Shown in pieces: positions 43,532-61,547 of a stretch of 64,000 nt of DNA. The position numbers and the translations under genes are program-made. The notes beneath the pieces were generated by a model. It worked only from the letters and a program-made list of their open reading frames with translations. It did no database searches and was not told where the DNA came from. Positions within the stretch are counted from its first letter, which is position 1, and each line of letters starts with the position of its first letter. The stretch is from the NCBI RefSeq assembly GCF_000422385.1, contig NZ_AULR01000015.1, positions 1 to 64,000 on the forward strand, given 5' to 3'. The DNA comes from Microbacterium indicum DSM 19969. GTDB taxonomy: Bacteria > Actinomycetota > Actinomycetes > Actinomycetales > Microbacteriaceae.

Positions 43532-43541
43532 TATTCGCGCC

Positions 43542-45218: not shown

Positions 45219-45251
45219 ATTGGATCCAATTTACTATTCCAAGGATCCAAT
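45219..45251. promoter_or_regulatory. Paired GntR-type operators, site A
   Basis: ATTGGATCCAAT (45219-45230) is a perfect 12-bp palindrome; CAAGGATCCAAT (45240-45251) matches it at 10 positions, 21 bp on. GCATTGGATCC and GGATCCAATGC also form an outer inverted repeat. The pair ends 17 bp before the cyclase ATG. Confidence 0.75.
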
Positions 45252-45268
45252 GCCGTTAGCATCGTCGC

Positions 45269-45913
45269 ATGACGACACGCGAACCGATCGACCTCAGCAT
45301 CGCCGTCCACCCAGAGATGCTGCACTGGGGCCGCCGACCGACCTACGAGATGGTGGAGGAGATCGGTCCCACCAACCCAAGCGAGGTGTCGCGCTGGCTC
45401 ATCGGCGCACACACGGGCACCCACGTCGATGCTCCGAGCCACTTCATCACGGGCGGGACGACCGTCGACCGCATTCCCATCACGCACACGGTGGGCCCGG
45501 CGCGCGTACTCGACCTCACGCACGTGGCGAAGGAGATCACCGCGGACGATCTCGTTGCCGCAGGCGCCGCAGGCGCGACACGGCTCCTCTTCAAGACCCG
45601 CAACTCCACCGATGCCCTCACCCGTAATGTGCGCAGCGAGACCTGGGTCGGCCTCGGCCCCAGTGGGGCTCGGTGGCTCGCCGACAACGGAGCTACCCTC
45701 GCCGGCCTCGACTACATGACGATGGAAGCCCCCGACCATACGGTCGAGTGGCCGACGCACGTCATCCTCTGCGGAGCGGGAGTCGTGATCCTCGAGAACG
45801 CCGACCTCGCGCTCGTCGACCCCGGTGACTACGAGCTCGTGTGCCTGCCCGTGCCCTTCGAGGGGCGCGAAGCGGCCCCCGCCCCCGCGGTCCTACTGCC
45901 GCTCGCCGCGTGA
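45269..45913 (+). CDS. Cyclase / KynB-like formamidase family protein
   Basis: This 214-aa metal-dependent hydrolase belongs to the cyclase family (kynurenine formamidase, isatin hydrolase). The metal motif HTGTHVDAPSHF is complete, and a second conserved block, DYMTMEAPDHTVEWPTH, matches the family. These enzymes hydrolyse amides or lactams. It lies directly downstream of the paired ATTGGATCCAAT operators and overlaps the next hydrolase (GTGA). No tryptophan-pathway genes are nearby, so a kynurenine role is unlikely. Confidence 0.85.
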   Translation: MTTREPIDLSIAVHPEMLHWGRRPTYEMVEEIGPTNPSEVSRWLIGAHTGTHVDAPSHFITGGTTVDRIPITHTVGPARVLDLTHVAKEITADDLVAAGAAGATRLLFKTRNSTDALTRNVRSETWVGLGPSGARWLADNGATLAGLDYMTMEAPDHTVEWPTHVILCGAGVVILENADLALVDPGDYELVCLPVPFEGREAAPAPAVLLPLAA

Positions 45914-46602
45914 GCCGGGCCATGCACATCGTTCTGGTACATGGCATGGGCGGGTCCGCGAGCTCCTGGTCGTCGGTCGCACCGCTTCTCGATGTGCGGG
46001 GAATCTCGTACTCCATCGCCGACAACTGGTCGCAGTCTCTCGCCGAGGACGTGGCGACCGTGGAGCGGCTCATCGCCGATGCGAGCGAGCCGGTGCTGCT
46101 CGTGGGCCATTCGTACGGCGGCGCGGTGATCACCGGTGCCGGCCGACACGCGGATGTGCGAGGGCTGGTCTACGTCTCGGCGTTCGGCCCCGCCGAGGGC
46201 GAGACGATCAACAGCATCGTCGAGAGCTATCCACCCGCGACGGTTTCGACGTTCTTCGATCGCGGTGACGATGGCGCGTGGATCCCTCAGGACGGCCCCG
46301 CGGCACGCGAGGCTCTCGCATGGGACGTTCCTGACGAGATCTGGCTACGCGAGCAGCACGACAAGCGCGTCTCGTCGAATGAGATCTTCCGCACCCCGGC
46401 CGGCGTGCCGGCGTGGGCGTCGAAGCCCGCCTGGTACATGGTCGCCACGCAGGATCAGCACATCGTCGTCGAGGCGCAGCGCGACATGGCTGCGCGCATG
46501 AACGCCACCGTCGTGGACGTCGGCACGACGCACGCGATCCAGCACGTACAACCGCAGTGCGTGGTCGACACGATCGAACAGGCGATCGCGATGCTCAGCT
46601 GA
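45910..46602 (+). CDS. Alpha/beta hydrolase
   Basis: This 230-aa protein has the serine-hydrolase elements in order: oxyanion-hole HGMGGSASSW, nucleophile elbow GHSYGGA, acid in ATQDQH and a C-terminal GTTHAIQH histidine. It resembles the small plant-methylesterase-like group of actinobacterial esterases. The GTG at 45910 overlaps the cyclase stop; an ATG four codons later is equally possible. It probably acts with the cyclase on an ester or amide intermediate. Confidence 0.83.
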   Translation: MSRAMHIVLVHGMGGSASSWSSVAPLLDVRGISYSIADNWSQSLAEDVATVERLIADASEPVLLVGHSYGGAVITGAGRHADVRGLVYVSAFGPAEGETINSIVESYPPATVSTFFDRGDDGAWIPQDGPAAREALAWDVPDEIWLREQHDKRVSSNEIFRTPAGVPAWASKPAWYMVATQDQHIVVEAQRDMAARMNATVVDVGTTHAIQHVQPQCVVDTIEQAIAMLS

Positions 46603-46654
46603 TCGAACGCGAGTGGCCCCGACCGAACAGTCGGGGCCACTCGCGTTCGATCAG
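46599..46654. terminator. Bidirectional terminator with a 25-bp perfect stem
   Basis: Arms 46599-46623 and 46630-46654 are exact complements around the loop CGAACA. The stem contains the stop codons of both convergent genes (46600-46602 and 46651-46653). It must fold in either transcript. Confidence 0.85.
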
Positions 46655-47910
46655 GCGGCGAGGCGGTCGACGACCGCGCAACCCGACTGCAGGACGAGCC
46701 GGACTGCGGCGTCAGCGCACATGCCGATCGGATCGGAGAGGGGATCGACGTCGGTCACGACGAGATCCGCCGTTTTGCCCTCCTCGATCGAACCGATCCG
46801 ATCGTCGAGACCCAGCAGCCGCGCCCCCGTCAGGGTGCCGGCGCACACGGCCTCAAGCGGGGTCAGGCCCGCCTCGACGAGCCAGGCCAGTTCTCGCAGG
46901 TTGCGCCCGTGCGGATGCACGCCCGCGTCGGTGCCCATCGCGAGGGTGACTCCCGCCGTCACCGCGCGACGGATCGAGTCCAGACCCCGCTGACGCAGCG
47001 CCTCGCGCGCGGCGAGTCGGGCGGGCGTCACCTGGTCGGGGGCGAGCTCGCGCATCAGCGTCGAGAGTGTGGGGATCAGAACCGTGCCGCGGTCGACCAT
47101 CAGCTGGATCGTCTCGTCGGACATGTCGTATCCGTGTTCGACGCTGGCAGCGCCGCCGAGCACTGCGGCGCGCACGCCGGCGTCGGTCAGCGCGTGCGCG
47201 GTGACGGTCGGACGACGATCGCGCCCCGCCAGCAGGCTCACGACCAGGCGCACCTGCTGCTCGGTGAGGCCCGCCTCATCGGTGGGCTTACCGGCACCGC
47301 CCGAGGTGCAGACCTTGATCACATCGGCTCCCGATCGCAGCAGCGACCGCACCATCGTGACGATGTCGGCGTCCGTGTCGACGACGCCCGCCGGCGGGGT
47401 GCCGGGGCGCACGGCCCACGCCGGCAGCGCGCCGTTCGGCAGGACCGGATCGGCGTGCCCGCCCGTCGGCGAGAGCATCGAAAGCGCCAGGTGGAGTCGC
47501 GGGCCGATCGCGCTGCCGGCCGCGATCGCGTTGCGGTAGCCCGGGGTGAGGCCGTCGAGGTCTCGCGCCGTCGTGATGCCGGCAGCGAGCGTCTTCTCGA
47601 GTACCCGCCCGACCGCGAACACCGACTCCTCGATGAACTGGCCGCGCTGGGTTTCGGCGTCTGTATCGACCATCGAGAGGTGCACATGGGCATCGACGAA
47701 GCCCGGCATCAGGTGCCGGCCCGCGAGGTCGACGACCTGCGCGTCGGCGACGGCGATGTCCCGCCGGGGCCCCGCGAAGGCGATCGCCCCGTCGCGGACC
47801 TCGACCTCGGAGTCGGGCACAGGCGCGGCACCCGTCCCGTCGATGAGCGTGGCTCCGACATAGCGGGTCACGCCGGACCGGATCGGGACCGCTGGCAGCA
47901 GAACGGGCAT
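46651..47910 (-). CDS. Amidohydrolase family protein (imidazolonepropionase/prolidase-like)
   Basis: This 419-aa amidohydrolase keeps every expected ligand. HxH is in DAHVHLSM, the bridging lysine in DVIKVCTSGG, histidines in VTAHAL and VEHGYDM, and the aspartate in GTDAGVHPHG. It belongs to the branch with metal-dependent prolidases and related dipeptidases. It is the last gene of the Dpp-type ABC operon, 18 bp after the ATPase gene. It may hydrolyse the imported peptide- or amide-like compound. Confidence 0.84.
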   Translation of the reverse strand: MPVLLPAVPIRSGVTRYVGATLIDGTGAAPVPDSEVEVRDGAIAFAGPRRDIAVADAQVVDLAGRHLMPGFVDAHVHLSMVDTDAETQRGQFIEESVFAVGRVLEKTLAAGITTARDLDGLTPGYRNAIAAGSAIGPRLHLALSMLSPTGGHADPVLPNGALPAWAVRPGTPPAGVVDTDADIVTMVRSLLRSGADVIKVCTSGGAGKPTDEAGLTEQQVRLVVSLLAGRDRRPTVTAHALTDAGVRAAVLGGAASVEHGYDMSDETIQLMVDRGTVLIPTLSTLMRELAPDQVTPARLAAREALRQRGLDSIRRAVTAGVTLAMGTDAGVHPHGRNLRELAWLVEAGLTPLEAVCAGTLTGARLLGLDDRIGSIEEGKTADLVVTDVDPLSDPIGMCADAAVRLVLQSGCAVVDRLAA

Positions 47911-47928
47911 CGGACTCCTTCGTTGCGG

Positions 47929-48702
47929 TCAGTCGGCGAGCGAGAATCGCGGCGACCCCGGGTCGGCGTCGAGCAGTCGCCGCGTGTAGGGGTGCTGCGG
48001 GTTCGCGTAGATCTGCTCGACGGGGCCCGCCTCGACGACCCGGCCTCCGTAGAGCACCATGATCTCGTCGCTCACGCGCTGCACGACGGCGAGGTTGTGC
48101 GAGATGAAGATCATTGTCAGCCCGAGGGAGCGTTTGATGTCGGCCAGCAGATCGAGGATCTGCGCCTGCACCGACACGTCGAGCGCCGACGTGATCTCGT
48201 CGGCGATCACGAGGCTCGGGTCGATGATGAGGCCGCGTGCGATCGCGACGCGCTGGCGCTGCCCGCCCGAGAACTCATGTGGGAACCGGTCCATCATGTC
48301 GGCAGACAGCCCCACGCGTTCGAGCCAGGAGACGATCAGGTCACGATTCGCGCGCACGCGGGCGCGGCGCGGCTCGATGGCCTCGGCGAGGGCCTGGCCG
48401 ATCGTGCGTCGCGGTGAGAGCGAGGAGTACGGGTCCTGCGGAATCAGCTGGGTGCTCCGCCGGTAGTCGCGGAGAGCGCCGTGTTTGAGACCTCGGACGT
48501 CGACGCCGTCGACGACGACGCTGCCGCTCGAGATCGGCGTGGTCCCAACGAGAGCGCCCGCGAACGTCGACTTTCCGGATCCCGATTCCCCCACGACGCC
48601 GACCGTCTTCCCGCGGGCGAGCTGCAGGTCGACCCCCGAGAGCACCCGCGTGCGCCCGTATGCGACGGCCAGCCCCGCCACGTCCAGCATCAGTTCCGCC
48701 AT
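47929..48702 (-). CDS. DppF-like ABC transporter ATP-binding protein
   Basis: This 257-aa ATPase has Walker A GESGSGKST, the Q-loop LIPQDPYSSLSPR, the signature FSGGQRQRVAIARG and Walker B LVIADEITSALD. The C-terminal NPQHPYTRRLL is typical of the oligopeptide/dipeptide group. Its ATG lies 13 bp inside the end of the upstream permease-ATPase fusion gene. It pairs with the ATPase half of that fusion. Confidence 0.88.
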   Translation of the reverse strand: MAELMLDVAGLAVAYGRTRVLSGVDLQLARGKTVGVVGESGSGKSTFAGALVGTTPISSGSVVVDGVDVRGLKHGALRDYRRSTQLIPQDPYSSLSPRRTIGQALAEAIEPRRARVRANRDLIVSWLERVGLSADMMDRFPHEFSGGQRQRVAIARGLIIDPSLVIADEITSALDVSVQAQILDLLADIKRSLGLTMIFISHNLAVVQRVSDEIMVLYGGRVVEAGPVEQIYANPQHPYTRRLLDADPGSPRFSLAD

Positions 48703-50420
48703 TCCGCGCTCTCCGCAGGTCCGCCCGCCGCGATCGAGACGACAGGTGTCGCCGCGAGCAGCTTCTTCGTATAGGGGTGCTGCACCGAATCGTGCGCCAA
48801 CGCGCCCATGTCGTCGATCTGCTCGACGATCTCGCCGTCCTTCATGACGAGCACGCGGTCGCACAGCGCCCGGACGACGCCGAGGTCGTGAGAGATGAAC
48901 AGGACCGCGGTGCCCGACTCTTCGTTCATCCGCTTCAGGAGCGCCAGCACCTCTCGCTGGACCGTGACGTCGAGGGCCGTCGTCGGCTCGTCCGCGACGA
49001 TGAGGTCCGGCTCGGTACTCATCGCCGAGGCGATCATCGCGCGCTGCTTCATACCGCCCGAGAGCTGATGCGGGTACTGGCGCAGCCGCCCCTCCGGATC
49101 CGTCAGCCGGACGCGACGGAACCAGGAGAGCACGCGGGCGATCGCGTCGTACCGCGTCTGACCCAAGTGGATCCGCAGGACGTCCGACAGCTGGATCGCG
49201 AGGATCATGGACGGATTGAGGGCCGTTCCCGGGTCCTGATAGATGAGACCGATCCGCTTGGCGAGCGCCTTCGGCGGCACGTCCCCGAGCAGGTCGGTGT
49301 CGCCGAGCCGCAGCCGTTTCGCCGATGCGTCCAACCCCTCCGCGACGAGGCGCGACACGACCGACGCTGTGAGCGACTTGCCGGAGCCCGACTCGCCGAC
49401 GATGCCGAGCACCTCGCCGCGCGAGATGGTGAAGGAGACGCCCTTGACGATCTCGCGCCCCGTCTCGCGGTGCGCGACGCGGATGTCGTCCGCGACGAGC
49501 AGCGCGTCGTGCTCCACGGGAGTCTGTTCCCCCGCGCCGGGGGCACGCCGCAACCGGGCGCGGGGCGTGCGCGTGCGCGGGTTCGACGCCGCGGCGAGGC
49601 CATCGCCGATCAGCAGGGCCGCCAGGGAGGTGAAGGTCAGCGCCACGGCGGGGCCGACGAGCACGATCGGATTGCTCGTCAGCTTGCTGAGCCCATCGCT
49701 CAGCAGGGTTCCCCAGTCGAACGACGGCGTCTGCGCGCCGAGGCCGAGGAAGGAGAGGCCCGAGATCTCGACGAGCGCGCCGCTGAACGCACCGGCGACC
49801 TGGATGAGGATCGGCTCCGCCATGTTCGGCAGCACGTGACGCGTCGCCACGAGATGCACGGGGACCCCCATGAGCCGGGCGGTCTCGACGTACTCGCTGG
49901 AGGCGATCTTCGAGGCGAGGTTCGCGGTGATGCGGGCGAAGCCCGCGATGTTGGCGACCGCGATGGCGAACACGACCTGCACCACGCCCTGCCCGAGGAT
50001 CGCCGCGACGATGATCGCGACGAGCATCGTCGGGTAGCTGATCGCGAACTCGATCGCGCGCAGCCCGAATTCGCGGACGCGCCGCGGCGCGAGCCACACG
50101 CCGATTCCGATCGCGACTCCGATGATCGCCGACAGCGCGGTGGCGGAGATCGCCATGACCACGGTCGTGCGCGACGCGACCAGCGTCCGAAGGAGCATGT
50201 CGCGCCCGAGCGTGTCGGTTCCGAGCAGGTGCTCCGGGGAGGAGCCTTGGTTGGCGCCGTCGCCGATCGCCGACACCTGGCCGCCCCAGGCGAGGGGGGC
50301 GATGATCGCCGTCAGGAGCACCAGCCCGAACATCGCCAGCCCGAGGACGAGCGCGAAGCTCCACCGGATGCGACTGCGGCGCGGGGCCGCCTGTGGTGTC
50401 CTCGCCTGCAGTTCAGCCAC
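48690..50420 (-). CDS. DppC-DppD fusion: ABC permease plus ATPase
   Basis: This 576-aa protein joins a DppC-type permease (about residues 1-285) to a DppD-type ATPase (about 310-570) through an Arg/Pro-rich linker. In the permease, LGTDTLGRDMLLR and the EAA region YVETARLMGVPVHLVATRHVLP are present. The ATPase has GESGSGKSL, the signature LSGGMKQRAMIASA and Walker B LIVADEPTTALD. The frame is continuous, so the fusion is real; such fusions are known in actinobacteria. It overlaps the DppB-like gene by 8 bp. Confidence 0.87.
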   Translation of the reverse strand: MAELQARTPQAAPRRSRIRWSFALVLGLAMFGLVLLTAIIAPLAWGGQVSAIGDGANQGSSPEHLLGTDTLGRDMLLRTLVASRTTVVMAISATALSAIIGVAIGIGVWLAPRRVREFGLRAIEFAISYPTMLVAIIVAAILGQGVVQVVFAIAVANIAGFARITANLASKIASSEYVETARLMGVPVHLVATRHVLPNMAEPILIQVAGAFSGALVEISGLSFLGLGAQTPSFDWGTLLSDGLSKLTSNPIVLVGPAVALTFTSLAALLIGDGLAAASNPRTRTPRARLRRAPGAGEQTPVEHDALLVADDIRVAHRETGREIVKGVSFTISRGEVLGIVGESGSGKSLTASVVSRLVAEGLDASAKRLRLGDTDLLGDVPPKALAKRIGLIYQDPGTALNPSMILAIQLSDVLRIHLGQTRYDAIARVLSWFRRVRLTDPEGRLRQYPHQLSGGMKQRAMIASAMSTEPDLIVADEPTTALDVTVQREVLALLKRMNEESGTAVLFISHDLGVVRALCDRVLVMKDGEIVEQIDDMGALAHDSVQHPYTKKLLAATPVVSIAAGGPAESAEWRN

Positions 50421-51447
50421 GTTTCTCCCCCAGGGTCCGCGGATCGATGATGCCCAGCACGATGTCGATCACCAGCGTGATCAGGAGCGAGATGAGCCCG
50501 ACGACGAACACCGCCGCGCGGATCACGGGGTAGTCCTTGTCGACCGAGATCGCCTGCACGATCACGCCGCCCAGCCCCGGCCACGCGAACACGGCCTCGG
50601 TGATGAGCGCGGATCCGAGCAGGGCCGTGAGGATGATGCCCGACAGGGTGAGCGCGGTCGTCAGCAGGTTGGGGAGCATGTGCTTCGCATAGAGCGTCAT
50701 CGCGGGCAGTCGCCAGCCGCGCGCGGTGCGCATGTAGTCCTGCTCGAGGATGACGACGGTCTCCCGGCGGACGACGCGCGCAACGGAGCAGAGCCCGCTG
50801 ATGGTCAGGGACATGATCGGCAGCACCGCCGTCCTGCCAAAGTCATACGCCGGCGAGTATGCCGGCGGCAGGACGTTGAGCCACACAGCGAAGATCACAA
50901 CGAGCAGGGTCGCCATGATGTAGGTCGGGATCGACGAGATGATGCCGGTGACGAAGTTGAACGCGAGGTCGAGCCACCGGTGCCGATCCCCTCTCGTCAT
51001 GACGCCGACCCACATGCCGAGGACGATGCCGGCGATCAGGAGGCCGATGACCGCGGCGAATGTGATCGACAGCGTGTACGGGGCGGCCGTCGCGACGATG
51101 TCCATCGCGGGCATCGAGTACCGGAACGAGTCGCCGAAGTCGCCGTGGAGAAGCCCCGTGACGTAGGTTCCGAACTGCGTCAGGAGCGGCTGGTCGAGAC
51201 CGAGCTGCTCCCGGACGAGCTCCACCTGCTCCAGGGTCGCGTCCTGTCCCGCGATGGCGGTCGCCGGGTCGCCGGGAATCAGCTGGACGATGAGGAAGGT
51301 CACGAGGGTGAGGAGCACCACGTTGATGATGAGCCCCGCCGCGCGGCGGAGGAGGAACCTCCGCCACGCGCCCGACAGCGAGCTCGCTGTGATCTGGGGA
51401 GCGGGGCCGCTCGCGTCGATATCGGCGTCGGCCGAGACGATCGTCAT
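50413..51447 (-). CDS. DppB-like ABC transporter permease
   Basis: This 344-aa permease has a hydrophilic leader of about 30 residues and then six helices. The DppB hallmarks IPGDPATAIAGQDAT and FGTYVTGLLHGDFGDSFRY follow the first helix, and YMRTARGWRLPAMTLYAKHM is the ATPase-docking region. It follows the binding-protein gene after 83 bp and forms the channel with the fusion protein. Confidence 0.88.
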   Translation of the reverse strand: MTIVSADADIDASGPAPQITASSLSGAWRRFLLRRAAGLIINVVLLTLVTFLIVQLIPGDPATAIAGQDATLEQVELVREQLGLDQPLLTQFGTYVTGLLHGDFGDSFRYSMPAMDIVATAAPYTLSITFAAVIGLLIAGIVLGMWVGVMTRGDRHRWLDLAFNFVTGIISSIPTYIMATLLVVIFAVWLNVLPPAYSPAYDFGRTAVLPIMSLTISGLCSVARVVRRETVVILEQDYMRTARGWRLPAMTLYAKHMLPNLLTTALTLSGIILTALLGSALITEAVFAWPGLGGVIVQAISVDKDYPVIRAAVFVVGLISLLITLVIDIVLGIIDPRTLGEKRG

Positions 51448-51530
51448 AGGAACCAGGGCCTCTCGTGTTTCGTGCCGCGGAGGAGGGGCGGGTGGCCGAG
51501 CGGGATCGCTCGGCCACCCGAGGCCTCATG

Positions 51531-53093
51531 TCAGTCGACGATCCTCATCGCCGAGATGTCCCAGTACCCCGAGAAGACGTAGGTGGCGAAGCCCTCACGC
51601 GCGACCATCCGGTGCGTGTCCGTGACGAGCGGGATCATGTCAACCCGCTCCAGGATCGACCGCTGCGCGTCTTCCAGGTACCCGCACTGCTCGTCGGCGT
51701 CCTCGGCCGCGATGCCCTTCTCGTACAGTTCCACGCCCTCCGGGTTGTCGGAGAAGCTCACGTTCGTTCCGCCGTCGAGGTAGCTCGGGCCGAGGTACCT
51801 TGCGATGGACGGCGCGATGAGACCGGTCGTGGCGTTCTCGGCGGCCACGGCGACGTCCCACTTGTTCGGCTCGGTGCGCATCGTGGTCGTCCACTCCGCG
51901 GCGTCCAGGGCGGTGATCGTGACCTCCGCGCCCGCGGCTCGGAGCGACTCGGCCAGATACTCGGCCGCCGAATCCCAGTTGGTCATGATCAGCAGACGGA
52001 TGGTCTGGCCGCTGAGCTCCTGCGATGCCGCGTCGACGTCGTACGTCTGCAGCAGCGACTCGTCTTCCAGGGCGCATGCGTACGTCGCCGAGTTGACCGT
52101 GTACTGCGAGGTGCCGAGCCCGTCGAGGCCCGCGTCATTGAACCCAGCGGGATCGATCGATTGGGCGACCGCCGTGCGCAGGTCCTGGTCGTCTTCGAAC
52201 ATGGCGCCGTCGGATTCGTTGAACACGAGGTTGTATGCCGAGCTCGCGAACTCCTCCACCGTGTATGCGTCGTCGTCTTCGAACTGCAGCGCGTTCGAGT
52301 CGTAGAACCGTGCGATGTCGACGCCGCCCGAGGTGAGCAGGTTGGCGCTCGTGTTCGAGTCCTCCTGCACCGAGAGGTTGATCGTCTCGGCAGGGCGACC
52401 TTCGACGTCCTCCCACGCGGGCCACGCGTCGTAGTCGTCGCGCAGCGTGTACTCCGCGCTGACGCCCGCCTTCGACGAGGTCAGCGTGTAGGGGCCGGAC
52501 CAGGCGCCCTCGACGGTGCCGGCGGCGAGGCCATCGGGATCCGCGATGCCGGCGGGGCAGATGATACCCGTTCCGGGCCGCGTCACGCCGCCGAGCAGCT
52601 GCGAGTAGGGCTCCGACAGGGTGATCGTGAGCGTGCCGGCCTCGTCGTCGGGGGTGAACGTGGCGTCGCCCGACCCGAAGGCCTGGGTCTGCCACGTCTG
52701 CGCACCCGAGTCGTCGAGGCCGGTGAGATAGGTGAAGGAGTCGGCAACGACGGTCGGCGTGATCTCCGTGCCGTCCGAGCAGGTCGCGTCGTCGCGGATC
52801 GTGAAGACATACTCGGAGGCCGAGACGGCGTCCCAGTCGGTCGCGAGGCCTCCGACGTAGCCCTCGGTCTCGCCCTGGCGCAGCAGGGTGTCGAATCCGA
52901 GTCGCGCGACCGTCTGGTCTGCGTCAGCGCTGCCCCGAGCCGGATCAAAGGTCGAGGGCGCATACCAGAGCTCCGCGTTGATCGTGTCGGTCTCCGCCGA
53001 GGCCGACGACGCTCCGGAGGCCGAGCAGCCCGCCAGCGCCAGCGCCAGGCCAGCCACCGCGGCGATGCCGGCGATCATGCTGTTCTTCTTCAT
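51531..53093 (-). CDS. DppA-like ABC substrate-binding lipoprotein
   Basis: This 520-aa lipoprotein of the oligopeptide/nickel-binding (SBP_bac_5) family starts MKKNSMIAGIAAVAGL and has the lipobox LAGC. STFDPARGSADADQTVARLG and LSEPYSQLLGGV are typical early segments. Many Asp/Glu and few Lys give a strongly acidic protein. The ATG follows GGAGAG. It is the first gene of the Dpp-type operon, and paired ATTGGATCCAAT sites lie 55-86 bp upstream. Related proteins import peptides, opines, glycosides or amides, so the ligand is open. Confidence 0.86.
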   Translation of the reverse strand: MKKNSMIAGIAAVAGLALALAGCSASGASSASAETDTINAELWYAPSTFDPARGSADADQTVARLGFDTLLRQGETEGYVGGLATDWDAVSASEYVFTIRDDATCSDGTEITPTVVADSFTYLTGLDDSGAQTWQTQAFGSGDATFTPDDEAGTLTITLSEPYSQLLGGVTRPGTGIICPAGIADPDGLAAGTVEGAWSGPYTLTSSKAGVSAEYTLRDDYDAWPAWEDVEGRPAETINLSVQEDSNTSANLLTSGGVDIARFYDSNALQFEDDDAYTVEEFASSAYNLVFNESDGAMFEDDQDLRTAVAQSIDPAGFNDAGLDGLGTSQYTVNSATYACALEDESLLQTYDVDAASQELSGQTIRLLIMTNWDSAAEYLAESLRAAGAEVTITALDAAEWTTTMRTEPNKWDVAVAAENATTGLIAPSIARYLGPSYLDGGTNVSFSDNPEGVELYEKGIAAEDADEQCGYLEDAQRSILERVDMIPLVTDTHRMVAREGFATYVFSGYWDISAMRIVD

Positions 53094-53147: not shown

Positions 53148-53179
53148 ATTGGATCCAATGCGTCAATATTGCATCCAAT
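53148..53179. promoter_or_regulatory. Paired GntR-type operators, site B
   Basis: ATTGGATCCAAT (53148-53159) and ATTGCATCCAAT (53168-53179; one change) are 20 bp apart, upstream of the DppA-like gene. Confidence 0.75.
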
Positions 53180-53670: not shown

Positions 53671-53671
53671 G

Positions 53672-54436: not shown

Positions 54437-54456
54437 GTGCGGTTCCTCTCGGAAAT

Positions 54457-55875
54457 TCAGGCGGGGTGGCGGTCGACGAGGCCAAGCGCAGCCTCGATCG
54501 CCGCGGTGCGGCGCAGGAGGTCGAACTCGCCCTGGTTGCGGCCCATGACTTGCAGGCCGACGGGCAGGCCGCCGACGAAGCCACCGGGGGTGACGACGAC
54601 GGGATGCGCGGTCTCGGTGAAGCGGTTGGCAAGCATCTGCCAGCGGAAGTACCGGTCGTACTCGACCTCGCCGACGCGCGCCACCCACTCGTCTTCGGCA
54701 GGAGGTGCAACGACGGGGGTCGCCGGGGCGATGACCAGGTCGATCGACAGGTCGTCGAACCAGTTCTCGGCGCGTCGATAGATCTCGGTGCGCTTGCGCA
54801 GCGCATCGGCGAGCTGGGAGGCGGTCGTGCTCTCGCCCTGGCGAATGTTGCGGAGCAGGTCCGGGCGCAGACCGTCGGGAGTCTCGGCGGCCTGCTCGCG
54901 GCCCGAGGCGTAGAAGTTGAACATCTCGATCGTCTCCCAGGCCTCTTCCGCATCGGCGAGCTCTGGCTCGAAGTCGACGATCGTGAATCCCGCCGCCGCG
55001 AGCGCGACGCGGGCGGCGCGGTGCGCCTGGGCGACCTCGTCGGAGATCGCGATTCCTCCGGCGGTCGCGCTCCAGCCGATGCGGACCGATGACGGGTCGG
55101 CGGCCGTGACGTCGAGGAACTGGGAGGGGTCCTCGGGGATCGACATCGGCGCCATCGGATCGGATCCTGCCATCGCCGCCAGCCCGAGCGCCGCATCGAG
55201 GCTCGTGCGCGCCATAGGCCCGAGCACGCCGTGAGCCGTCCAGCCGTTGTCGGGTCTGCCGCTCGGCACCCGCCCCGGCGTGGGGCGCAGACCGACGACG
55301 TTGCAGAAGGCGGCCGGGTAGCGCAGGCTTCCGCCACTGTCGGATCCATCGACGATCGGCAGCATGCCGGTCGCGACCGCCGCCGCGGCGCCGCCGCTCG
55401 AGCCGCCCGCGTGGCGGGAGAGATCGTAGGGGTTGCGGCACACACCGTGCAGCGGGTTGAACGTGAGGGTGCCGAGACCCTGCTCAGGGGTGTTCGTCTT
55501 CGCGATCACGAGGGCGCCGCCCTCGCGCATCTTGCGCACGATCATCGAGTCCGCCGCGGCGGGCGGGGCATCCCTGCCGAGGAGCGAACCATGCGTCGTC
55601 GGCAGCCCCTTGGCGTCCATGAGGTCTTTCACGCCCGTCGGTAGCCCATGCACGGGACCGAGGTCATCGCCCCGGGCAACCGCACGGTCCGCCTCGCGGG
55701 CGAGTTCGATCGCCTCGCTCTCGGGGATCATCGCGACGATCGCGTTGACCTCGCCGTTGCGTTCCTCGATGCGACCGAGGTGCGCGCGCATCACCTCCTC
55801 GGCCGAGAACTCCCGAGCGCGGATCCCCTGCGTGAGATCGCGCGCGCTGCGCCAGTGGAGGGGTGTGTCTGTCAT
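54457..55875 (-). CDS. Amidase (amidase signature family)
   Basis: This 472-aa enzyme has the Ser-Ser-Lys triad elements: GVKDLMDAKG (Lys), GGSSGGAAAAVATG (cis-Ser region) and VDGSDSGGSLRYPAAF (nucleophile Ser). It resembles cytoplasmic amidases of broad substrate range (GatA-like, 6-aminohexanoate-cyclic-dimer hydrolase-like). The ATG at 55875 follows GGAAGG and overlaps the phosphotriesterase-like stop (ATGA). A long upstream extension of the frame was rejected. Confidence 0.87.
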   Translation of the reverse strand: MTDTPLHWRSARDLTQGIRAREFSAEEVMRAHLGRIEERNGEVNAIVAMIPESEAIELAREADRAVARGDDLGPVHGLPTGVKDLMDAKGLPTTHGSLLGRDAPPAAADSMIVRKMREGGALVIAKTNTPEQGLGTLTFNPLHGVCRNPYDLSRHAGGSSGGAAAAVATGMLPIVDGSDSGGSLRYPAAFCNVVGLRPTPGRVPSGRPDNGWTAHGVLGPMARTSLDAALGLAAMAGSDPMAPMSIPEDPSQFLDVTAADPSSVRIGWSATAGGIAISDEVAQAHRAARVALAAAGFTIVDFEPELADAEEAWETIEMFNFYASGREQAAETPDGLRPDLLRNIRQGESTTASQLADALRKRTEIYRRAENWFDDLSIDLVIAPATPVVAPPAEDEWVARVGEVEYDRYFRWQMLANRFTETAHPVVVTPGGFVGGLPVGLQVMGRNQGEFDLLRRTAAIEAALGLVDRHPA

Positions 55876-56891
55876 CGCGTACCTTCCGGTCGGTCGAGCA
55901 ACGCGGCGGGGCGATGCACGAGGATGTCGTCGATCCGAGTCGATTCGAGGCCCATGCGGGCAAGCGCCGGGGCGATGCGGCGCGGAACATGGCCGTATCC
56001 CATCCCCCCGTATCGGGCGAGCTGCCCCTTCGTCCACACCGACGCGGTCGCGGTGATCGCGGCGCGAGGGCGCTCATGCACGAGGTCGAGCAGGAACTCG
56101 AGACGCGCGAGATCGGTGGCATCGCGGAACCGATCGGCGAAGTAGTGCTCGCTGCCGAAGGCGAATTCGACGACAGCACCGGTGTCGACGATGTCGCGCA
56201 CATACGCGTCGTCGAGCACCTTGTCGATGTTGCAGAACAGGATCTTGTCGGCGGGTAGCCCCTCGCTCATCATGAGCTCGGCGACCTCGAGCCCGAGCAT
56301 CGCGTGCCCCTCGAGCCTCACGCTGACCGCAGCCCCCGCCTCGGCGGCGACGTGACAGGCGGTGCGCAGCGCGCGATCCTCGGCGGGGGTGATCTCGGCG
56401 CTGGTGCCCATGAGCCCGAGCAGCCCGGCCCGGAACTCGGTGCCGGGCACGCGATCGTGGAGGGCCGCACGGAACAGCGCCTCGAATTCGGGTTCGCGCT
56501 TCTGCCGCCACGCGTCGTCGAGGGTCCGATCGATGTAGACCCCGTAGGCCGACACGATGTGGAGCCCCGCCGCCCGCGACACGGCGGGGAGATCGGCGTG
56601 ACGCGGGCCCATCCCCCAGGAGGTCGCCTCGACGATCGTGCCTACGCCCGACTCGGCGGCGAGCGCGAGCTCAGAGATCGCGGTCCCGACGTCGTCGAGC
56701 AGCAGGTTGTCGGGCAGCGCCTGGTAGCTCCAGCGCAGGTCGCCGAGGATCTCGGGGCGAATCTCGCCCTCGATCCAGCGCCCCTCGCGGTTGGGCTTCG
56801 CAAGGACTCGCGAGTCGCCGAGCACGTGCTCGTTTGTGTTGACCCGCCCCAGGGCTTCGCGCGGGACGGGGCCGAGGACCGTCTCGATCAT
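55872..56891 (-). CDS. Phosphotriesterase-like protein with degenerate metal site
   Basis: This 339-aa protein aligns throughout with the phosphotriesterase/lactonase family, from VLGPVPREALGRV to the C-terminal ARYGGMGYGHVPRRIAPAL. Almost every metal ligand is changed. The N-terminal HxH is NEH (Asn20, His22), the carboxylated lysine position is Gly (AGLLGLMGTS), the two strand histidines are Arg (VSVRLEGH) and Asn (ILFCNID), and the C-terminal Asp is Ala (TATASVW). It is either a pseudoenzyme or a metal-free enzyme. It overlaps both neighbours by ATGA and so is expressed with them. Confidence 0.8.
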   Translation of the reverse strand: MIETVLGPVPREALGRVNTNEHVLGDSRVLAKPNREGRWIEGEIRPEILGDLRWSYQALPDNLLLDDVGTAISELALAAESGVGTIVEATSWGMGPRHADLPAVSRAAGLHIVSAYGVYIDRTLDDAWRQKREPEFEALFRAALHDRVPGTEFRAGLLGLMGTSAEITPAEDRALRTACHVAAEAGAAVSVRLEGHAMLGLEVAELMMSEGLPADKILFCNIDKVLDDAYVRDIVDTGAVVEFAFGSEHYFADRFRDATDLARLEFLLDLVHERPRAAITATASVWTKGQLARYGGMGYGHVPRRIAPALARMGLESTRIDDILVHRPAALLDRPEGTR

Positions 56892-58231
56892 CGAACGGCC
56901 CTCCTGTAGACGGTGCGTCCGCCGACGACGGTGCGCCGCACCGTCAGCCTCCGCACGTCGTCGATCGGGACCCGCGTGGGGTCATCAGACCAGAGCGCCC
57001 AGTCGGCGAGGCGGCCCGCGCGCAGCATTCCCTGGGATTCCTCGCCCATCGCGGCGTACGCGGCGCCCGTCGTGTAGGCGGCGAGCGCCTGAGAGACGGT
57101 GATCGCCTCGGCCGAATCCAGCGGAGGATGCCCGTCGATCTGCCGGGTGACGACGTGCCAGATCAGGTGCCGCGGGTCGAAGGCGAAGAACGGGCCGTCG
57201 GATCCGAAGGCGACGGGCGCACCCGAGTCGATCCATGAGCGCACGGGGTCGATCCGCTCGGCGCGAGCGCCGAGCTTCTCGCGCAGCCCCGGAGCGTTCC
57301 AGATCGCGATACCCGGTTGCAGCGAGGCGATGATGCCCTCGCGCGCGGCGAGCGCCATCGTCTCGGCGCTGGGCTCGAGGTAGGCGTGGATCAGCTGGTG
57401 GCGGCGATCTCGGATCGCGCCGGCGGCCTCGGCCGCATATGTGCGGGCGACCAGAGATACCGCCGCGCCGCCGACCGCGTGGGCGCCGACTCCCCATCCG
57501 TGCTCGGCGCACCAGCGCACGAGACGCGCGAAGTCCTCATCGGAGATCCGCTGCACGCCTCGGTAGCCGCTGTCATCCCAGGGCTCCTCGAGCAGCGCTT
57601 GCCCTTTGAGCGCCTCGCCGTCGGCGTACACCTTGATGGGACCGACCCGCAGCAGGTCGTCTCCGAAGCCGGTCGACAGCCCGATGCCGTCGAGGCGCGC
57701 GATGACGGCGTCGACGTCGGGAATCTCCGGCGAGCCGAGATCGTGCCAGGGCATCATGACCGTGCGCATCGTGAGCAATCCGCGGCGCCGCGACTCCTGG
57801 TACCCGCGGAACTCGTCGGGCGAGACCGCCGGATCCACGATGCTCGTGAAGCCGAGGGAATGGAGCAGCGGCTGCACACGCACGAGCGCCCGGATGCGGT
57901 CCTCGAAGGGCGGATGTTCGGGCCCGTCGTCATCGAAGCTGTCGCGCATGGCGTCGATGTACCGCTCGACATCGTCGCCCTCGTCCACGTAGTCGAGCGC
58001 CTTGAGGCCCGCCCGCTGCATGTGCATGTGCGCGTCGATGAGGCCGGGCAGCACGACGCCGTCGAGCTCCACGACCTCCGCTTCGAGGCCGGCGACCTCC
58101 CGCACCTCTTCGAACGTCCCGACAGCCGTGAGGCGGTCGCCGCAGACGGCGAATGCCTCGGCGTGGGGGCGCCCCGGATCCATGGTCACGACACCGCCCG
58201 GCCGGTAGACAGTGCTCCTCGGGTCGGACAT
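56888..58231 (-). CDS. Amidohydrolase-3 (YtcJ-like) family protein
   Basis: This 447-aa amidohydrolase has an intact metal site: DAHMHM, GPIKVYADG, GAHAVGG, LIHAYLEP and GSDGPFFAFD. Members hydrolyse N-substituted formamides and related amides (NfdA type). The ATG at 58231 follows AAAGG; earlier in-frame starts lie within the operator region and were rejected. It is the first gene of the five-gene hydrolase operon, divergent from ridA, with paired operators between. Confidence 0.86.
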   Translation of the reverse strand: MSDPRSTVYRPGGVVTMDPGRPHAEAFAVCGDRLTAVGTFEEVREVAGLEAEVVELDGVVLPGLIDAHMHMQRAGLKALDYVDEGDDVERYIDAMRDSFDDDGPEHPPFEDRIRALVRVQPLLHSLGFTSIVDPAVSPDEFRGYQESRRRGLLTMRTVMMPWHDLGSPEIPDVDAVIARLDGIGLSTGFGDDLLRVGPIKVYADGEALKGQALLEEPWDDSGYRGVQRISDEDFARLVRWCAEHGWGVGAHAVGGAAVSLVARTYAAEAAGAIRDRRHQLIHAYLEPSAETMALAAREGIIASLQPGIAIWNAPGLREKLGARAERIDPVRSWIDSGAPVAFGSDGPFFAFDPRHLIWHVVTRQIDGHPPLDSAEAITVSQALAAYTTGAAYAAMGEESQGMLRAGRLADWALWSDDPTRVPIDDVRRLTVRRTVVGGRTVYRRAVR

Positions 58232-58248: not shown

Positions 58249-58280
58249 ATTGGATGCGAATTACATTACATTGGATCCAT
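58249..58280. promoter_or_regulatory. Paired GntR-type operators, site C
   Basis: ATTGGATGCGAA (58249-58260) and ATTGGATCCAT (58270-58280) are 21 bp apart in the divergent promoter between the amidohydrolase and RidA genes. Both are imperfect copies of ATTGGATCCAAT. Confidence 0.68.
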
Positions 58281-58326
58281 GCTGGTGCTGAATGGCGCCG
58301 CGACCCATCGCCCAAGGACTCCGTTC

Positions 58327-58851
58327 ATGACCTCCGCGCATCCCTCCGCCCACGACGCCGAGTCACGCGTCGCCGAACTCGGACTGCAGATCCCCGACTA
58401 CGCGAACCCGCCGTACGGCCAGCGATTCGGCGCATCACTCAAGCCCTTCCATCGTGTCGGAGAGCTCGTGGAGTTCAGCGGCATGTCGCCCGAGAGCCGC
58501 TCCGGCGATCGCACGAACCCCGGCACCGTCGGGCTCGATCTCACGATCGCGCAGGGATACGAGGCGGCGCGCTACACCGCGATCAACAGCCTCGGGATGA
58601 TCCGGTACGCACTCGGCTCACTCAACGAGGTCGTCGCGCTCTCGCGCGCGCTGTGCTTCATCACGTGTCCGCCGGGGTTCGACCGCCTCAACGAGGTTTC
58701 CGCCGGCGCCACCGACCTGTACCTCGAGGTCTTCGGCCCCGAGATCGGCGCCGTCGGGCGCGCATCGATCGGCGCGACTGCGCTGACGAACAGCGCCTCG
58801 TTCGAGCTGTGGCTGAGCCTGGAGTGCGCACCCCGCGCGACCGACGGATGA
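58327..58851 (+). CDS. RidA/YjgF family protein
   Basis: This 174-aa protein resembles the longer RidA-like (YjgH-type) enamine/imine deaminases. The N-terminal VELVEFSGMSPES block, the central ARYTAINSLGMIRYALGSLNEV and the final GRASIGATALTNSASFELWL with the catalytic arginine are present. It would remove or channel a reactive enamine. The ATG follows AAGGA; an ATG at 58279 lies inside the operator. Its stop overlaps the MFS start (ATGA). Confidence 0.84.
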   Translation: MTSAHPSAHDAESRVAELGLQIPDYANPPYGQRFGASLKPFHRVGELVEFSGMSPESRSGDRTNPGTVGLDLTIAQGYEAARYTAINSLGMIRYALGSLNEVVALSRALCFITCPPGFDRLNEVSAGATDLYLEVFGPEIGAVGRASIGATALTNSASFELWLSLECAPRATDG

Positions 58852-60011
58852 CGCGCCCCGTCGTCCGGACCCCGGCGTTCTGGATGCTGTTCAGTGCTTC
58901 CCTTCTCGCGAACGCATCGCACTCGGTCAGCACGCCGATCATCCCCGTCTATGTGGAGGACGTCCTCGGCGGCGACAGCACGACCGCCGGGGTGATCGTC
59001 GCGATGACCTCCCTCGTGTCGATCGTCGCGATGCCCCTCGCGGGAATGCTTGGCGATCGATACGGGTATCGCCCGGTCGCGGCGACCGGCAGCATCATCG
59101 GAGTCACCGCGGTCGTCCTCCTCGCGTCAGTGCCGACGCTCGCCGCCGCCGCGGGCGCCCGCGCGCTGTTCGGCCTGGGCAGTTCGGCGGCCGAGACCCT
59201 GGTGATGGCGTGGGCCGTGGGCATGACGCCCCCGACCCAGCGGGGGCGCACCCTCAGCGTCTACGGCCTGAGCGTCTGGCTCGGCATCGCTCTCGGGCCG
59301 CAGCTGGGTACCCGCGTCGAGGCGGCATGGGGCGCCGTCGCCGCGTTCTGGGCGTGCGCGATCATCGAGGCCCTGATCCTGATGATCCTCCTGCTGATGC
59401 CCCGCCAGGCGACGAAGCGGGAGCGGCCGCCGCACGCGCACCCCGCCGAGGTCCTGTCCGCAGGTCGGGCCGTGTCGGTTCCGGGGCTCGCCGCGACCGC
59501 CGCCTGGTGCGGGCAGGGCCTCCTGCTGGCCTTCTCGCTCGTCCACCTCGCGAGCGTCGGCGTGCCCGCCACGGGGCTGCTCAGCGCGGCCAGCGTGTTC
59601 ACGATCTTCGCGGTCAGCGTCGTCCTCGCCCGGCTCGTCCTCGCGCCTTCCCTCGACCGCATCGGCCCGCGGCGCGCGTCGATCACGTCGCTGGCGATCC
59701 TCGGCTCGGGCCTCGTGATCGTGGCGATCACGCCGAACTTCTGGGTAGCCGCGATCGGCACCATTCTGATCGGAATCGGATTCGCACCGCTCTATCCGGC
59801 GCTTACGATGCTCGCGACACGGCGGCTGGCCGCTCGAAACCAGGCACTCGGCCTCGGGATCTTCGCTGCCTTCGCCAACGCAGGAAACGGCCTCGGCGCC
59901 GTCGTCGGCGGAGCCATGATCGGCTTCATGAGCTCGATGTGGGCGTTCCTCACCGTGGCGGTGCTGCAGATCGCCGCGATCCTCGTCATCTCGTGCCGCA
60001 GCATGCGCTGA
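58848..60011 (+). CDS. MFS transporter
   Basis: This 387-aa membrane protein has about 12 helices and the MFS loop motif GMLGDRYGYRPV after helix 2, with a related region LDRIGPRR after helix 8. It is cotranscribed with ridA and lies within the GntR-type island, so it may import a substrate or export a product of this pathway. It is closest in pattern to drug/metabolite permeases of actinobacteria. No substrate can be assigned. Confidence 0.83.
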   Translation: MTRPVVRTPAFWMLFSASLLANASHSVSTPIIPVYVEDVLGGDSTTAGVIVAMTSLVSIVAMPLAGMLGDRYGYRPVAATGSIIGVTAVVLLASVPTLAAAAGARALFGLGSSAAETLVMAWAVGMTPPTQRGRTLSVYGLSVWLGIALGPQLGTRVEAAWGAVAAFWACAIIEALILMILLLMPRQATKRERPPHAHPAEVLSAGRAVSVPGLAATAAWCGQGLLLAFSLVHLASVGVPATGLLSAASVFTIFAVSVVLARLVLAPSLDRIGPRRASITSLAILGSGLVIVAITPNFWVAAIGTILIGIGFAPLYPALTMLATRRLAARNQALGLGIFAAFANAGNGLGAVVGGAMIGFMSSMWAFLTVAVLQIAAILVISCRSMR

Positions 60012-60055
60012 CGAGCGCGCCGGCGACGTACACCGGAACCGGTGCACCGGTCGAG

Positions 60056-61513
60056 TCAGACGGCCATGACGATGCTCTTCGTCTCCAGGAACCCGTCGAG
60101 GCCCGCCTCGCCCAGGTCCCGCCCGAGGCCCGAGTCGCGCACGCCCCCGAAGGAGAGTGCGGGGTGGAAGATGTTGTAGGTGTTGACCCACACGGTCCCG
60201 GCGCTGATGCCCTGAGCCATGCGGTGGGCGCGCGCAAGGTCCGTCGTCCAGACGCCGGCCGCGAGACCGAACGTCGTATCGTTGGCGATCCGCAGCGCCT
60301 CGGCTTCGTCGTCGAAGGGGATGATCCCGGCGACGGGCCCGAAGATCTCCTCGCGGGCGATGACCATGTCGTTGGTGACGCCGGTGAACAGGGTCGGCTC
60401 GAGGTAGTAGCCGGGGCCGCTGATCCCGCCGCCCGTGACGAGCTGGGCACCCTGCGACTTTCCGCTCTCGATGTAGCCGAGTACGCGCTGGCGCTGCTCC
60501 TCGGACACCATCGGGCCGACGGAGATCCCGCCCGCGAGGCCGTCGCCCACGGGCACCTTCGCGGCGGCCTCGGCGAGGCGCTCGGTCATCTCGCCGAGGA
60601 CGCTGCGCTGCACGAGGATGCGACTGCCGGCCGTGCACATCTGGCCGGAGTGGCCGAAGGTCGCACGCATCGCCGTCACCGTCGCGAGGTCGAGATCCGC
60701 GTCAGCGAAGATGATGTTCGGGCTCTTTCCGCCGAGCTCGAGGGTGACGCGCTTGAAGCCGGGCACCGAGGCGTGCAGGATGTGCGCCCCCACCTCGGTC
60801 GAGCCCGTGAATGTGACCTTGGCGATGTCGGGGTGCGTGCTGAGCGTGGCTCCCGCGACGTGGTCACCCGTGATGACGCTGACGACGCCCGTGGGGATGC
60901 CCGCCTCGGCCATCAGGGCGGCGAGCCGCAGGGCCGTGAGAGGCGTGTCCTCCGCGGGCTTGACGATCACCGGGCATCCCGCGGCGAGCGCGGGGCCGAG
61001 CTTGTACGCCGCCGTCATGACCGGGAAGTTCCAGGGCAGGATCGCTGCGACCGGCCCCACGGGCTCCTTCACCGTGTAGGCGTGGTGCGACCCGCCGTCG
61101 ATGGGGACGACGGTGCCGCCGAGACGCGTCGTCGCGCCGGCGAAGTGGCGGAAGGTGTTCGCGGCGGACTGCGTGTCGGCGCGCGAGCGCTCGATGGGCT
61201 TACCCTGATCGCGCGTCTCGAGGATGGCGAGCTCTTCGAGATCTCGTTCGATCAGCTCGGCGACGCGGTTCATGATCCGGGTGCGCTCGAGCGGATCCAT
61301 GCCGCTCCATACCCGCGACCGGTGTGCCTCGAGCGCGGCGGCGACCGCATGGTCGACGTCGGCCGGCGTTGCGTCTGCGACGGTCGTGATGACCTGCTCG
61401 GTCGCGGGGTCGATCACGTCGCGAATCGCCCGGCCGCCGGCCTCGACCCACTCCCCCGCGAGAAAGAACGGAAGGAACGGTTCGAGCGAAGGCAGGCTGG
61501 CGCGCGAGATCAT
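60056..61513 (-). CDS. NAD(P)-dependent aldehyde dehydrogenase
   Basis: This 485-aa enzyme has the catalytic cysteine in HSGQMCTAGSR, the general-base glutamate in LELGGKSPN and the cofactor site FTGSTEVG with the earlier PWNFPVMTAAYK. It oxidises an aldehyde to the acid, a natural follow-on from an amine oxidase, whose gene lies near the window end. The neighbour to the right is the divergent GntR regulator, and paired operators lie at its start codon. Confidence 0.9.
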   Translation of the reverse strand: MISRASLPSLEPFLPFFLAGEWVEAGGRAIRDVIDPATEQVITTVADATPADVDHAVAAALEAHRSRVWSGMDPLERTRIMNRVAELIERDLEELAILETRDQGKPIERSRADTQSAANTFRHFAGATTRLGGTVVPIDGGSHHAYTVKEPVGPVAAILPWNFPVMTAAYKLGPALAAGCPVIVKPAEDTPLTALRLAALMAEAGIPTGVVSVITGDHVAGATLSTHPDIAKVTFTGSTEVGAHILHASVPGFKRVTLELGGKSPNIIFADADLDLATVTAMRATFGHSGQMCTAGSRILVQRSVLGEMTERLAEAAAKVPVGDGLAGGISVGPMVSEEQRQRVLGYIESGKSQGAQLVTGGGISGPGYYLEPTLFTGVTNDMVIAREEIFGPVAGIIPFDDEAEALRIANDTTFGLAAGVWTTDLARAHRMAQGISAGTVWVNTYNIFHPALSFGGVRDSGLGRDLGEAGLDGFLETKSIVMAV

Positions 61514-61515
61514 GC

Positions 61516-61547
61516 ATGGATCCTAACAGCTCCCCATTGGATCCATT
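61516..61547. promoter_or_regulatory. Paired GntR-type operators, site D
   Basis: ATGGATCCTAA (61516-61526) and ATTGGATCCATT (61536-61547) are 20-21 bp apart in the divergent region between the aldehyde dehydrogenase and gntR-type genes. The first copy sits next to the dehydrogenase ATG. Confidence 0.7.

Follow-up and report, generated by a model that had tools for sequence, protein, structure and literature searches.

What do the paired palindromes in the first 64,000 nucleotides of Microbacterium indicum DSM 19969 contig NZ_AULR01000015.1 (hereafter, the window) control, and which protein reads them? A first-pass annotation had placed two copies of one palindrome in each of four intergenic regions, tied about 17 kb into one regulon and nominated the product of the gene at 61636 as its regulator. 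Overall, our sequence comparisons suggest that this GntR-family protein very probably controls about 27 neighbouring genes through the paired palindromes, and that other actinobacteria likewise combine this regulator with such paired sites.

All four pairs were recovered in the intergenic regions originally named, preceding the cyclase, the DppA-like gene, the amidohydrolase/RidA genes and the ALDH/GntR genes, and the measured spacings (21, 20, 21 and 21 bp) agreed with the 20-21 bp claimed (Table 1). Most copies are degenerate: the exact 12-mer occurs in the window only at 45219 and 53148, and the other members carry one (53168 and 61536), two (58270), three (45240 and 58249) or four mismatches (61515). 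Seven copies start where first placed, and pair 4 starts at 61515 in the 12-mer register, not at 61516. The proposal of a single regulon was supported; its extent grew to about 33 kb, and a further pair, the fifth, lies beyond the window. From about 36.7 to 70.1 kb there are 27 genes, and every transcription unit that we infer among them is preceded by one pair in the intergenic region before it. The layout is that of an autoregulated regulon, pair 4 lying before GntR and ALDH and pairs 1-3 and 5 before other units, and we infer from it that the pairs serve as operators.

Table 1. Putative regulon of the 61636 product, in contig coordinates.
Feature	Position	Strand	Remark
SSF permease, DUF1989 x2 (UAAP1, UAAP2), urea/guanidine carboxylase, allophanate hydrolase	36710..45096	-	apparent operon divergent from cyclase
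Operator pair 1 (45219/45240, 21 bp)	45219..45251		SSF (-) / cyclase (+) intergenic
Cyclase (PF04199), alpha/beta hydrolase	45269..46602	+	
DppA, DppB, fused DppC-DppD, DppF, amidohydrolase	46651..53093	-	
Operator pair 2 (53148/53168, 20 bp)	53148..53179		upstream of DppA operon
Amidohydro_3, phosphotriesterase family, amidase, Amidohydro_2, cytidine-deaminase-like	53221..58231	-	last one below Pfam's cut-off
Operator pair 3 (58249/58270, 21 bp)	58249..58281		Amidohydro_3 (-) / RidA-like (+) intergenic
RidA/YjgF-like protein (below Pfam's cut-off), MFS transporter	58327..60011	+	
Aldehyde dehydrogenase (ALDH)	60056..61513	-	
Operator pair 4 (61515/61536, 21 bp)	61515..61547		ALDH (-) / GntR (+) intergenic
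GntR/FCD regulator, 236 aa, proposed repressor	61636..62346	+	Pfam GntR + FCD; orthologues; AlphaFold model
Copper amine oxidase (CAO), C-terminal part	62868..64000	-	operon continues past window
GGT (64846-66330), DAO, EgtE-like PLP enzyme (ends 68677)	past window		CAO operon, fifth pair at head
Operator pair 5 (68680/68701)	68680-68712		4.7 kb past window end; heads CAO-side operon

We provide a putative mechanism for this regulon, and consider it highly likely that the 61636 product is a GntR/FCD repressor that sits on tandem palindromes over promoters, is released by an effector and co-regulates about 27 genes including its own. The repressor would bind tandem 12-bp palindromes with the core TTGGATCCAA, in most cases a strong site beside a weak one, whose centres lie 21 bp apart and would thus face the same side of the helix; two dimers or one tetramer may bind them cooperatively. 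Once bound, it would cover the promoter/start region of every transcription unit. An effector from the substrate pathway would enter the FCD pocket and take the repressor off the DNA, and the genes (contig 36.7-70.1 kb), the regulator included, would serve uptake and breakdown of amine, amide or guanidino compounds.

That the protein is instead an activator, or loops DNA between distant pairs, we regard as unlikely. In catabolic clusters, most known GntR proteins act as repressors. Only 1-17 bp separate the pairs at ALDH, the EgtE-like gene, the cyclase and Amidohydro_3 from the start codon, with pair edges 1-2 bp away at the EgtE-like gene and ALDH (1 bp for pair 4), a placement that suits blocking better than activation. 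In contrast, the start codons of SSF, GntR and the isochorismatase gene are 88-122 bp away from the respective pairs, a distance that would suit activation or looping and makes control of these three genes less certain. Looping between palindromes 190 bp apart is also described for the FCD protein Atu1419. Some pairs are overlapped or flanked by TANNNT boxes, which resemble -10 elements; they were not counted as evidence.

The 61636 product belongs to the FCD subfamily of the GntR family, with an N-terminal GntR winged helix (PF00392, 5.6e-20) and a C-terminal FCD domain (PF07729, 3.5e-19), both above Pfam's cut-off. The first-pass annotation had called it a dimer-of-dimers GntR/FadR regulator and the best candidate for these sites. 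The nomination was strongly supported by our sequence comparisons; the FadR label is probably to be replaced by VanR. The fold search ranked the VanR-group protein Atu1419 third and Escherichia coli FadR only from rank 43, which favours VanR. The groups differ in having six (VanR) or seven (FadR) effector-domain helices, and the AlphaFold model (pLDDT 87.7; helices 80-101, 107-127, 134-153, 156-166, 172-180, 182-201 and 204-235) has six if 172-201 is a single broken helix and otherwise seven. Judging from the fold ranking, the protein is probably of the VanR group. A dimer-of-dimers state is plausible, and the tandem 21-bp sites are compatible with a tetramer. Among 21 aligned sequences, Arg49 and Thr50 of the SRTPVREAL stretch and His146, His192 and His214 are invariant, and Asn142/Asp143 are conserved in more than 90%. 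Matched to N137/H141/H192/H214 of Atu1419, this pattern would supply the ligand set of a metal-binding FCD domain (Asp/Asn plus three His).

The named refutation test, loss of the pairs in relatives, was run, and the pairs proved to be kept in relatives with the same regulator and genes. A pair was present at 25 of 26 named orthologue loci, whereas the 54 loci examined for more distant GntR proteins had none; because those 26 loci had been picked by their regulator, only the genome samples are an independent test. In the family sample, a pair occurred in 9 of the 11 orthologue-bearing genomes versus 4 of 288 others (Fisher p 8e-13), with the orthologue line drawn after the hits were known and two pairless proteins at 41-42% identity excluded; including both gives 9/13. 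The class sample, which shares the M. indicum genome and some others with the first, gave 4/4 versus 4/341 (p 1e-7). Of its 345 genomes, 3 also matched the backward control pattern, which puts the four orthologue-free hits near background. Where family-sample genomes bear the orthologue, 11 of their 12 pair places are no more than 17 kb away from the GntR gene.

The spacing was conserved as well. At 36 orthologue loci, where some genomes are probably present twice (L003-L012 versus L015-L040), 39 pairs with at most 5 summed mismatches had a spacing of 21 bp and 5 had one of 22 bp, whereas the 54 distant-GntR loci (980 kb) gave none at spacings of 12-59 bp. A second site (at most 5 mismatches) lay exactly 21 bp from 39 of 48 strong sites, other offsets occurring at most 9 times each, in a count from which identical sequences alone were removed and which retains close relatives. 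The relatives' pairs often stand upstream of homologues of the EgtE-like gene, ALDH, DppA, Amidohydro_2, CAO, GntR itself or a Rieske oxygenase; 11 of 48 fall inside an ORF according to rough gene starts from a home-made GC3 caller. One relative whose regulator is 55% identical has no pair (L039), and the partner site is very weak in several operators.

These comparisons also bear on whether a different regulator, encoded elsewhere, might own the operators, with the GntR gene as passenger and target. A perfect pair upstream of an acyl-CoA-dehydrogenase-like gene in a genome without the orthologue (G622) indicates that the operator form is not exclusive, and the M. indicum genome has 12 FCD matches. 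However, pairs track the orthologue in both genome samples and adjoin its gene in many relatives, and no second regulator appeared among the proteins scanned at contig 36.7-70.1 kb. We consider a different regulator quite improbable and regard the 61636 product as the probable owner of the pairs.

The pairs are also rare. The annotation had found none elsewhere in the window, and our scan (up to 4 mismatches per member and 6 in total, members separated by 10-45 bp) likewise gave no place in the window beyond the four; the fifth pair, outside it, came from the same scan. The genome search that the annotation had suggested (2.81 Mb, 28 contigs) found the pairs, within the mismatch limits used, on this contig only: the 12-mer with at most 1 mismatch occurred on this contig alone, the 21-bp pair pattern (at most 3) at four places, all here, and a looser 20-bp pattern (at most 2) at 53148 alone. 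That the pairs arose by chance, or form a repeat element that regulates nothing, as the often degenerate partner sites might suggest, is a negligible prospect given no pairs in 200 first-order Markov windows versus four observed, no match to the backward-pattern controls of all three genome searches, and the 21-bp peak across genera.

The genes under the putative 61636 repressor look suited to the breakdown of nitrogen-rich compounds. The apparent urea/guanidine carboxylase operon, in which adjacent ORFs share about 4 bp, is probably inside the regulon. In an NCBIfam scan of 20 proteins, with the Dpp genes, carboxylase, allophanate hydrolase and MFS transporter left out, the matches listed that passed the curated cut-off were UAAP1 and UAAP2 (urea amidolyase-associated) and a primary-amine oxidase subfamily; among ten proteins from relatives, the FolC-like gene alone reached it. 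RidA-like and cytidine-deaminase-like are weak names. No Rfam family reached its gathering score in the window, and hence no guanidine riboswitch was found there.

Most relatives' loci additionally encode a glutamine-synthetase-like ligase together with an oxygenase of the Rieske type, neither of which was found in M. indicum; set against the regulator tree, with few supported branches, the Rieske module requires five changes. To our knowledge, no histamine, creatinine, theanine, pterin, purine (Rut/Hpx-like) or ergothioneine pathway covers the whole gene set; these pathways are suggested by single enzymes (CAO, DAO, RidA-like, isochorismatase and EgtE-like PLP enzyme). We tentatively speculate, rating the combination as somewhat unlikely as a whole, that the repressor is a VanR-group FCD tetramer gripping two neighbouring palindromes in phase, that the actinobacterial pathway under its control is an undescribed one that, in most relatives, starts with gamma-glutamylation of an amine and its oxidation by a Rieske enzyme and ends with salvage of the nitrogen through a guanidine/urea carboxylase, and that the window strain keeps the regulon without the entry module.

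The system offers a testable regulator-operator pair for a wide range of uncharacterised hydrolases and oxidases of Microbacterium and other actinobacteria, and searching a genome for the operator would yield its candidate pathway members. The tandem sites at 21 bp lend themselves to testing whether VanR-type FCD proteins act on adjacent sites as tetramers.

Among the literature matches listed for the exact 12-mer, none was a GntR-operator paper by title, and TTGGATCCAA together with GntR was met only in cellulase secretion work. Searches on the wider gene set returned aromatic-amine and aniline degradation and, with guanidine terms, a petroleum-reservoir genome. HypR, a FadR-type regulator of Streptomyces, has a different motif (PMC6608401). 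Suvorova et al. 2015 (PMC4494728) describe double GntR sites in divergent promoters, classed as co-operative or operon-specific, whereas the main text of that paper is without the terms tandem, 21 bp, tetramer or GGATCC. The guanidine carboxylase pathway comprises guanidine carboxylase, carboxyguanidine deaminase and allophanate hydrolase (PMC12186494); similarly, the SSF-UAAP1-UAAP2-UC-AH operon adjoins the pair-1 intergenic region with a candidate urea or guanidine carboxylase, and AH and UC homologues also stand beside pairs in Demequina (L040), the pair of UC being weak. Like the aniline and 1-naphthylamine clusters (AtdA, NpaA), the relatives' regulons combine a Rieske oxygenase with a glutamine-synthetase-like ligase, whose best solved match is NpaA1 (8wwu, E 4e-119); in contrast, M. 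indicum shows neither, and the relatives add CAO, GGT, EgtE-like PLP enzyme, DAO and ALDH. Of the solved structures, PmiR of Pseudomonas aeruginosa (PDB 7xp0, 7xp1) gave the best match by sequence (5e-21); the fold search ranked it second, at 29-30% identity. Atu1419 of Agrobacterium fabrum (PDB 6z74, 6za0, 6za3, 6za7) is described as a tetrameric VanR-group FCD repressor of catabolic genes and of itself that binds 10-bp palindromes, with a perfect and a degenerate site at one promoter. It shares with the 61636 product the GntR/FCD architecture, the SRTPVREAL recognition stretch and a 10-mer palindrome whose third letter is G and whose eighth is C (ATGTATACAT for Atu1419, TTGGATCCAA here), and repression would be a further likeness. 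However, the two proteins are only about 25% identical, and, according to the same source, the Atu1419 regulon serves hydroxycinnamate catabolism and its sites lie 109-190 bp apart with looping, whereas those described here lie 21 bp apart and in phase.

Overall, as far as comparison of sequences can show, the palindrome pairs and the GntR/FCD protein of Microbacterium indicum would form a well-defined, autoregulated catabolic regulon, the tandem operator of which is unusually regular. The four pairs described in the first-pass annotation were present with only minor corrections of their coordinates, and the spacing of 20-21 bp held for all of them. The weaker pair members carried one to four mismatches to ATTGGATCCAAT. 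Simulated windows of the same first-order composition contained pairs in 0 of 200 cases, compared with four pairs in the real window. Across the 2.81-Mb genome, the ATTGGATCCAAT 12-mer with at most one mismatch occurred on this contig only; the 21-bp pair pattern with at most three mismatches was found at four places, all on this contig, and the looser 20-bp pattern at 53148 alone. One of the four 21-bp places is a new fifth pair, 4.7 kb beyond the window end.

Genes were named from Pfam and NCBIfam searches, and putative operons were assigned from gene order and spacing. Between 36.7 and 70.1 kb, every transcription unit assigned in this way is preceded by an intergenic region that holds one pair. 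The regulon would thus comprise approximately 33 kb and 27 genes rather than the 17 kb initially proposed, excluding an unnamed small open frame between the GntR and amine oxidase genes. No pair was seen at the regulon border (contig 70128-76499). The distance from operator to gene varies widely, and the pair edge lies 1 or 2 bp from some start codons.

Operator pairs and associated features (window and contig coordinates, unless a relative's locus is named; UAAP1/UAAP2, DUF1989 proteins; PTE, phosphotriesterase family)
Feature	Position	Spacing (bp)	Content	Pair edge to start codon (bp)
Pair 1	45219/45240	21	SSF-UAAP1-UAAP2-urea/guanidine carboxylase-allophanate hydrolase, divergent from cyclase-alpha/beta hydrolase	SSF, within 88-122; cyclase, 17
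Pair 2	53148/53168	20	DppA-B-CD-F-amidohydrolase	DppA, 54
Pair 3	58249/58270	21	Amidohydro_3-PTE-amidase-Amidohydro_2-CDA-like, divergent from RidA-like-MFS	Amidohydro_3, 17; RidA-like, 45
Pair 4	61515/61536	21	ALDH, divergent from GntR	ALDH, 1; GntR, within 88-122
Pair 5	68680/68701	21	EgtE-like PLP enzyme-DAO-gamma-glutamyltranspeptidase-copper amine oxidase, divergent from two isochorismatase-family hydrolases	EgtE-like, 2; isochorismatase gene, within 88-122
GntR gene	61636-62346 (+)		Proposed repressor, 236 aa	
GTTAGGATCCA site	61513-61547		Adjoins ALDH itself	
Carboxylase operon	36710-45096		Both DUF1989 subunits and SSF permease	
Fused DppC-DppD	48690-50420		DppC-like permease and DppD-like ATPase in a single 576-aa ORF; relatives' homologues match across most of its length in one stretch	
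Small frame	about 62350-62900 (-)		Membrane-like protein (by eye), between GntR and copper amine oxidase	
Regulon border	70128-76499 (L001 10128-16499)		Second oligopeptide-type ABC system (two fused ATPase domains, permease); beta-lactamase-family protein	
Relatives' triple sites	L028 18052-18105; L029 17770-17823		Three palindromes apparent in 21-bp steps	
G622 pair	L117 10015-10047 (C10:60015)	21	Zero-mismatch twin palindrome	

The choice of this GntR regulator as the candidate for the pairs proved right as far as orthologue loci and genome samples show, and a search of the genome and relatives found the pairs kept with the orthologue. Scanning the named genomes gave at least 80 loci, among which those listed comprised 26 orthologues (52-74% identity) and 54 distant GntR loci, many matching in the DNA-binding domain only. 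At least one pair was found in 25 of these 26 orthologue loci, L039 being the only one without. When ten loci from a family genome sample were added (36 in total), pairs with at most five summed mismatches numbered 39 at 21 bp and five at 22 bp; at the same threshold, the 54 distant loci (980 kb) were without pairs throughout the spacing range of 12-59 bp. Of 48 pairs, rough gene calling placed 37 between genes and 11 inside an ORF; for some of the latter, the gene start may have been set too far upstream. Among 48 distinct strong sites, 39 had a partner (at most five mismatches) at offset 21, and no other offset gave more than nine. Partners at offset 16 (9/48) may be a register echo, and those at offset 42 (7/48, the further site being weak) hint that some operators include a third site.

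In the family sample of 299 genomes, 13 had a GntR match at E ≤1e-40; 11 (≥61% identity) were taken as orthologues, and the two left out (41-42%) had no pair. The pair pattern with at most two mismatches occurred in nine of the 11 genomes with an orthologue versus four of the 288 others (Fisher p 8e-13), and the reversed control pattern gave 0 among the matches listed. In the two misses (L009 and L010), strong single sites are still present, and weaker partners lie 21 bp from them. In the class-wide sample of 345 genomes, the pair was present in all four genomes with an orthologue versus 4/341 others (p 1e-7). Here the reversed control matched in three genomes; therefore, the four with a pair but no orthologue are near background. 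The nine family genomes have 12 pair places, of which 11 are no more than 17 kb from the GntR gene; the remaining one, in G176, is on a separate contig, that assembly being fragmented. All nine places in the other three class-sample genomes lie within 31 kb of the gene.

One genome, G622, carries a perfect pair upstream of a gene judged by eye to be acyl-CoA-dehydrogenase-like, and a GntR orthologue was not found in that genome. Therefore, the operator form is not exclusive to the GntR orthologue. In G622, which has four FCD matches, the operator may serve a different regulator; of the three matches compared with the window GntR, the best was 34% identical.

Within flanks of up to 10 kb, ALDH was encoded in 19 of the 26 orthologue loci, the copper amine oxidase, DAO and EgtE-like enzyme in 18, a Rieske protein and a ligase in the same 16, Amidohydro_2 in 14 and the CDA-like protein in 12. 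The closest solved structure to the ligase is NpaA1 (PMC11335346), and that to the Rieske protein is entry 9ina, which a paper on isophthalate dioxygenase mentions (PMC12445078). This tally, these structural relatives and the carboxylase operon together point to an amine, amide or guanidino compound as the substrate. No Rfam riboswitch reached the gathering score in the carboxylase operon (window 36710-45096). In Demequina (L040), homologues of the carboxylase and allophanate hydrolase also adjoin operator sites.

In five relatives' loci (L015, L017, L018, L019 and L118; three of the first four are titled Microbacterium), GTTAGGATCCA, followed by three bases and ATG, adjoins a ferredoxin-reductase gene, and the order is ferredoxin reductase-Rieske-ligase-ALDH. 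Since the site adjoins ALDH itself in the window, the ferredoxin reductase-Rieske-ligase module is absent exactly between operator and ALDH. L016 has the module genes without a clean GTTAGGATCCA site. A search of the M. indicum genome, run without a positive control, gave no match at E 0.001 to a relative's Rieske protein; two glutamine-synthetase matches lie 6 kb apart on a different contig. On the regulator tree, the difference may reflect either loss in M. indicum or gain in the relatives.

Both the GntR and FCD domains of the regulator scored above the Pfam cut-off. The effector domain of the AlphaFold model (pLDDT 87.7) has six helices when residues 172-201 are taken as a single broken helix, and otherwise seven. 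The nearest solved folds were a Brucella GntR protein, PmiR and Atu1419 (VanR), with FadR far lower, which favours but does not prove membership of the VanR group. Atu1419, from Agrobacterium fabrum, is described as a tetramer in which each dimer binds a 10-bp palindrome, ATGTATACAT, with Arg45 contacting the essential G3; a degenerate second site is bound as well (PMC7797058). The window palindrome TTGGATCCAA matches the Atu1419 palindrome in length and in its G3/C8 positions, and the SRTPVREAL stretch, with Arg49 and Thr50, is kept in the window regulator. By analogy, these likenesses support one dimer per palindrome, and a tetramer might span two sites at the 21-bp distance. The carboxylase operon in turn resembles the guanidine carboxylase route (PMC12186494). 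Autoregulated GntR/FCD catabolic regulons are a kind already known, of which the present regulon would be a new instance.
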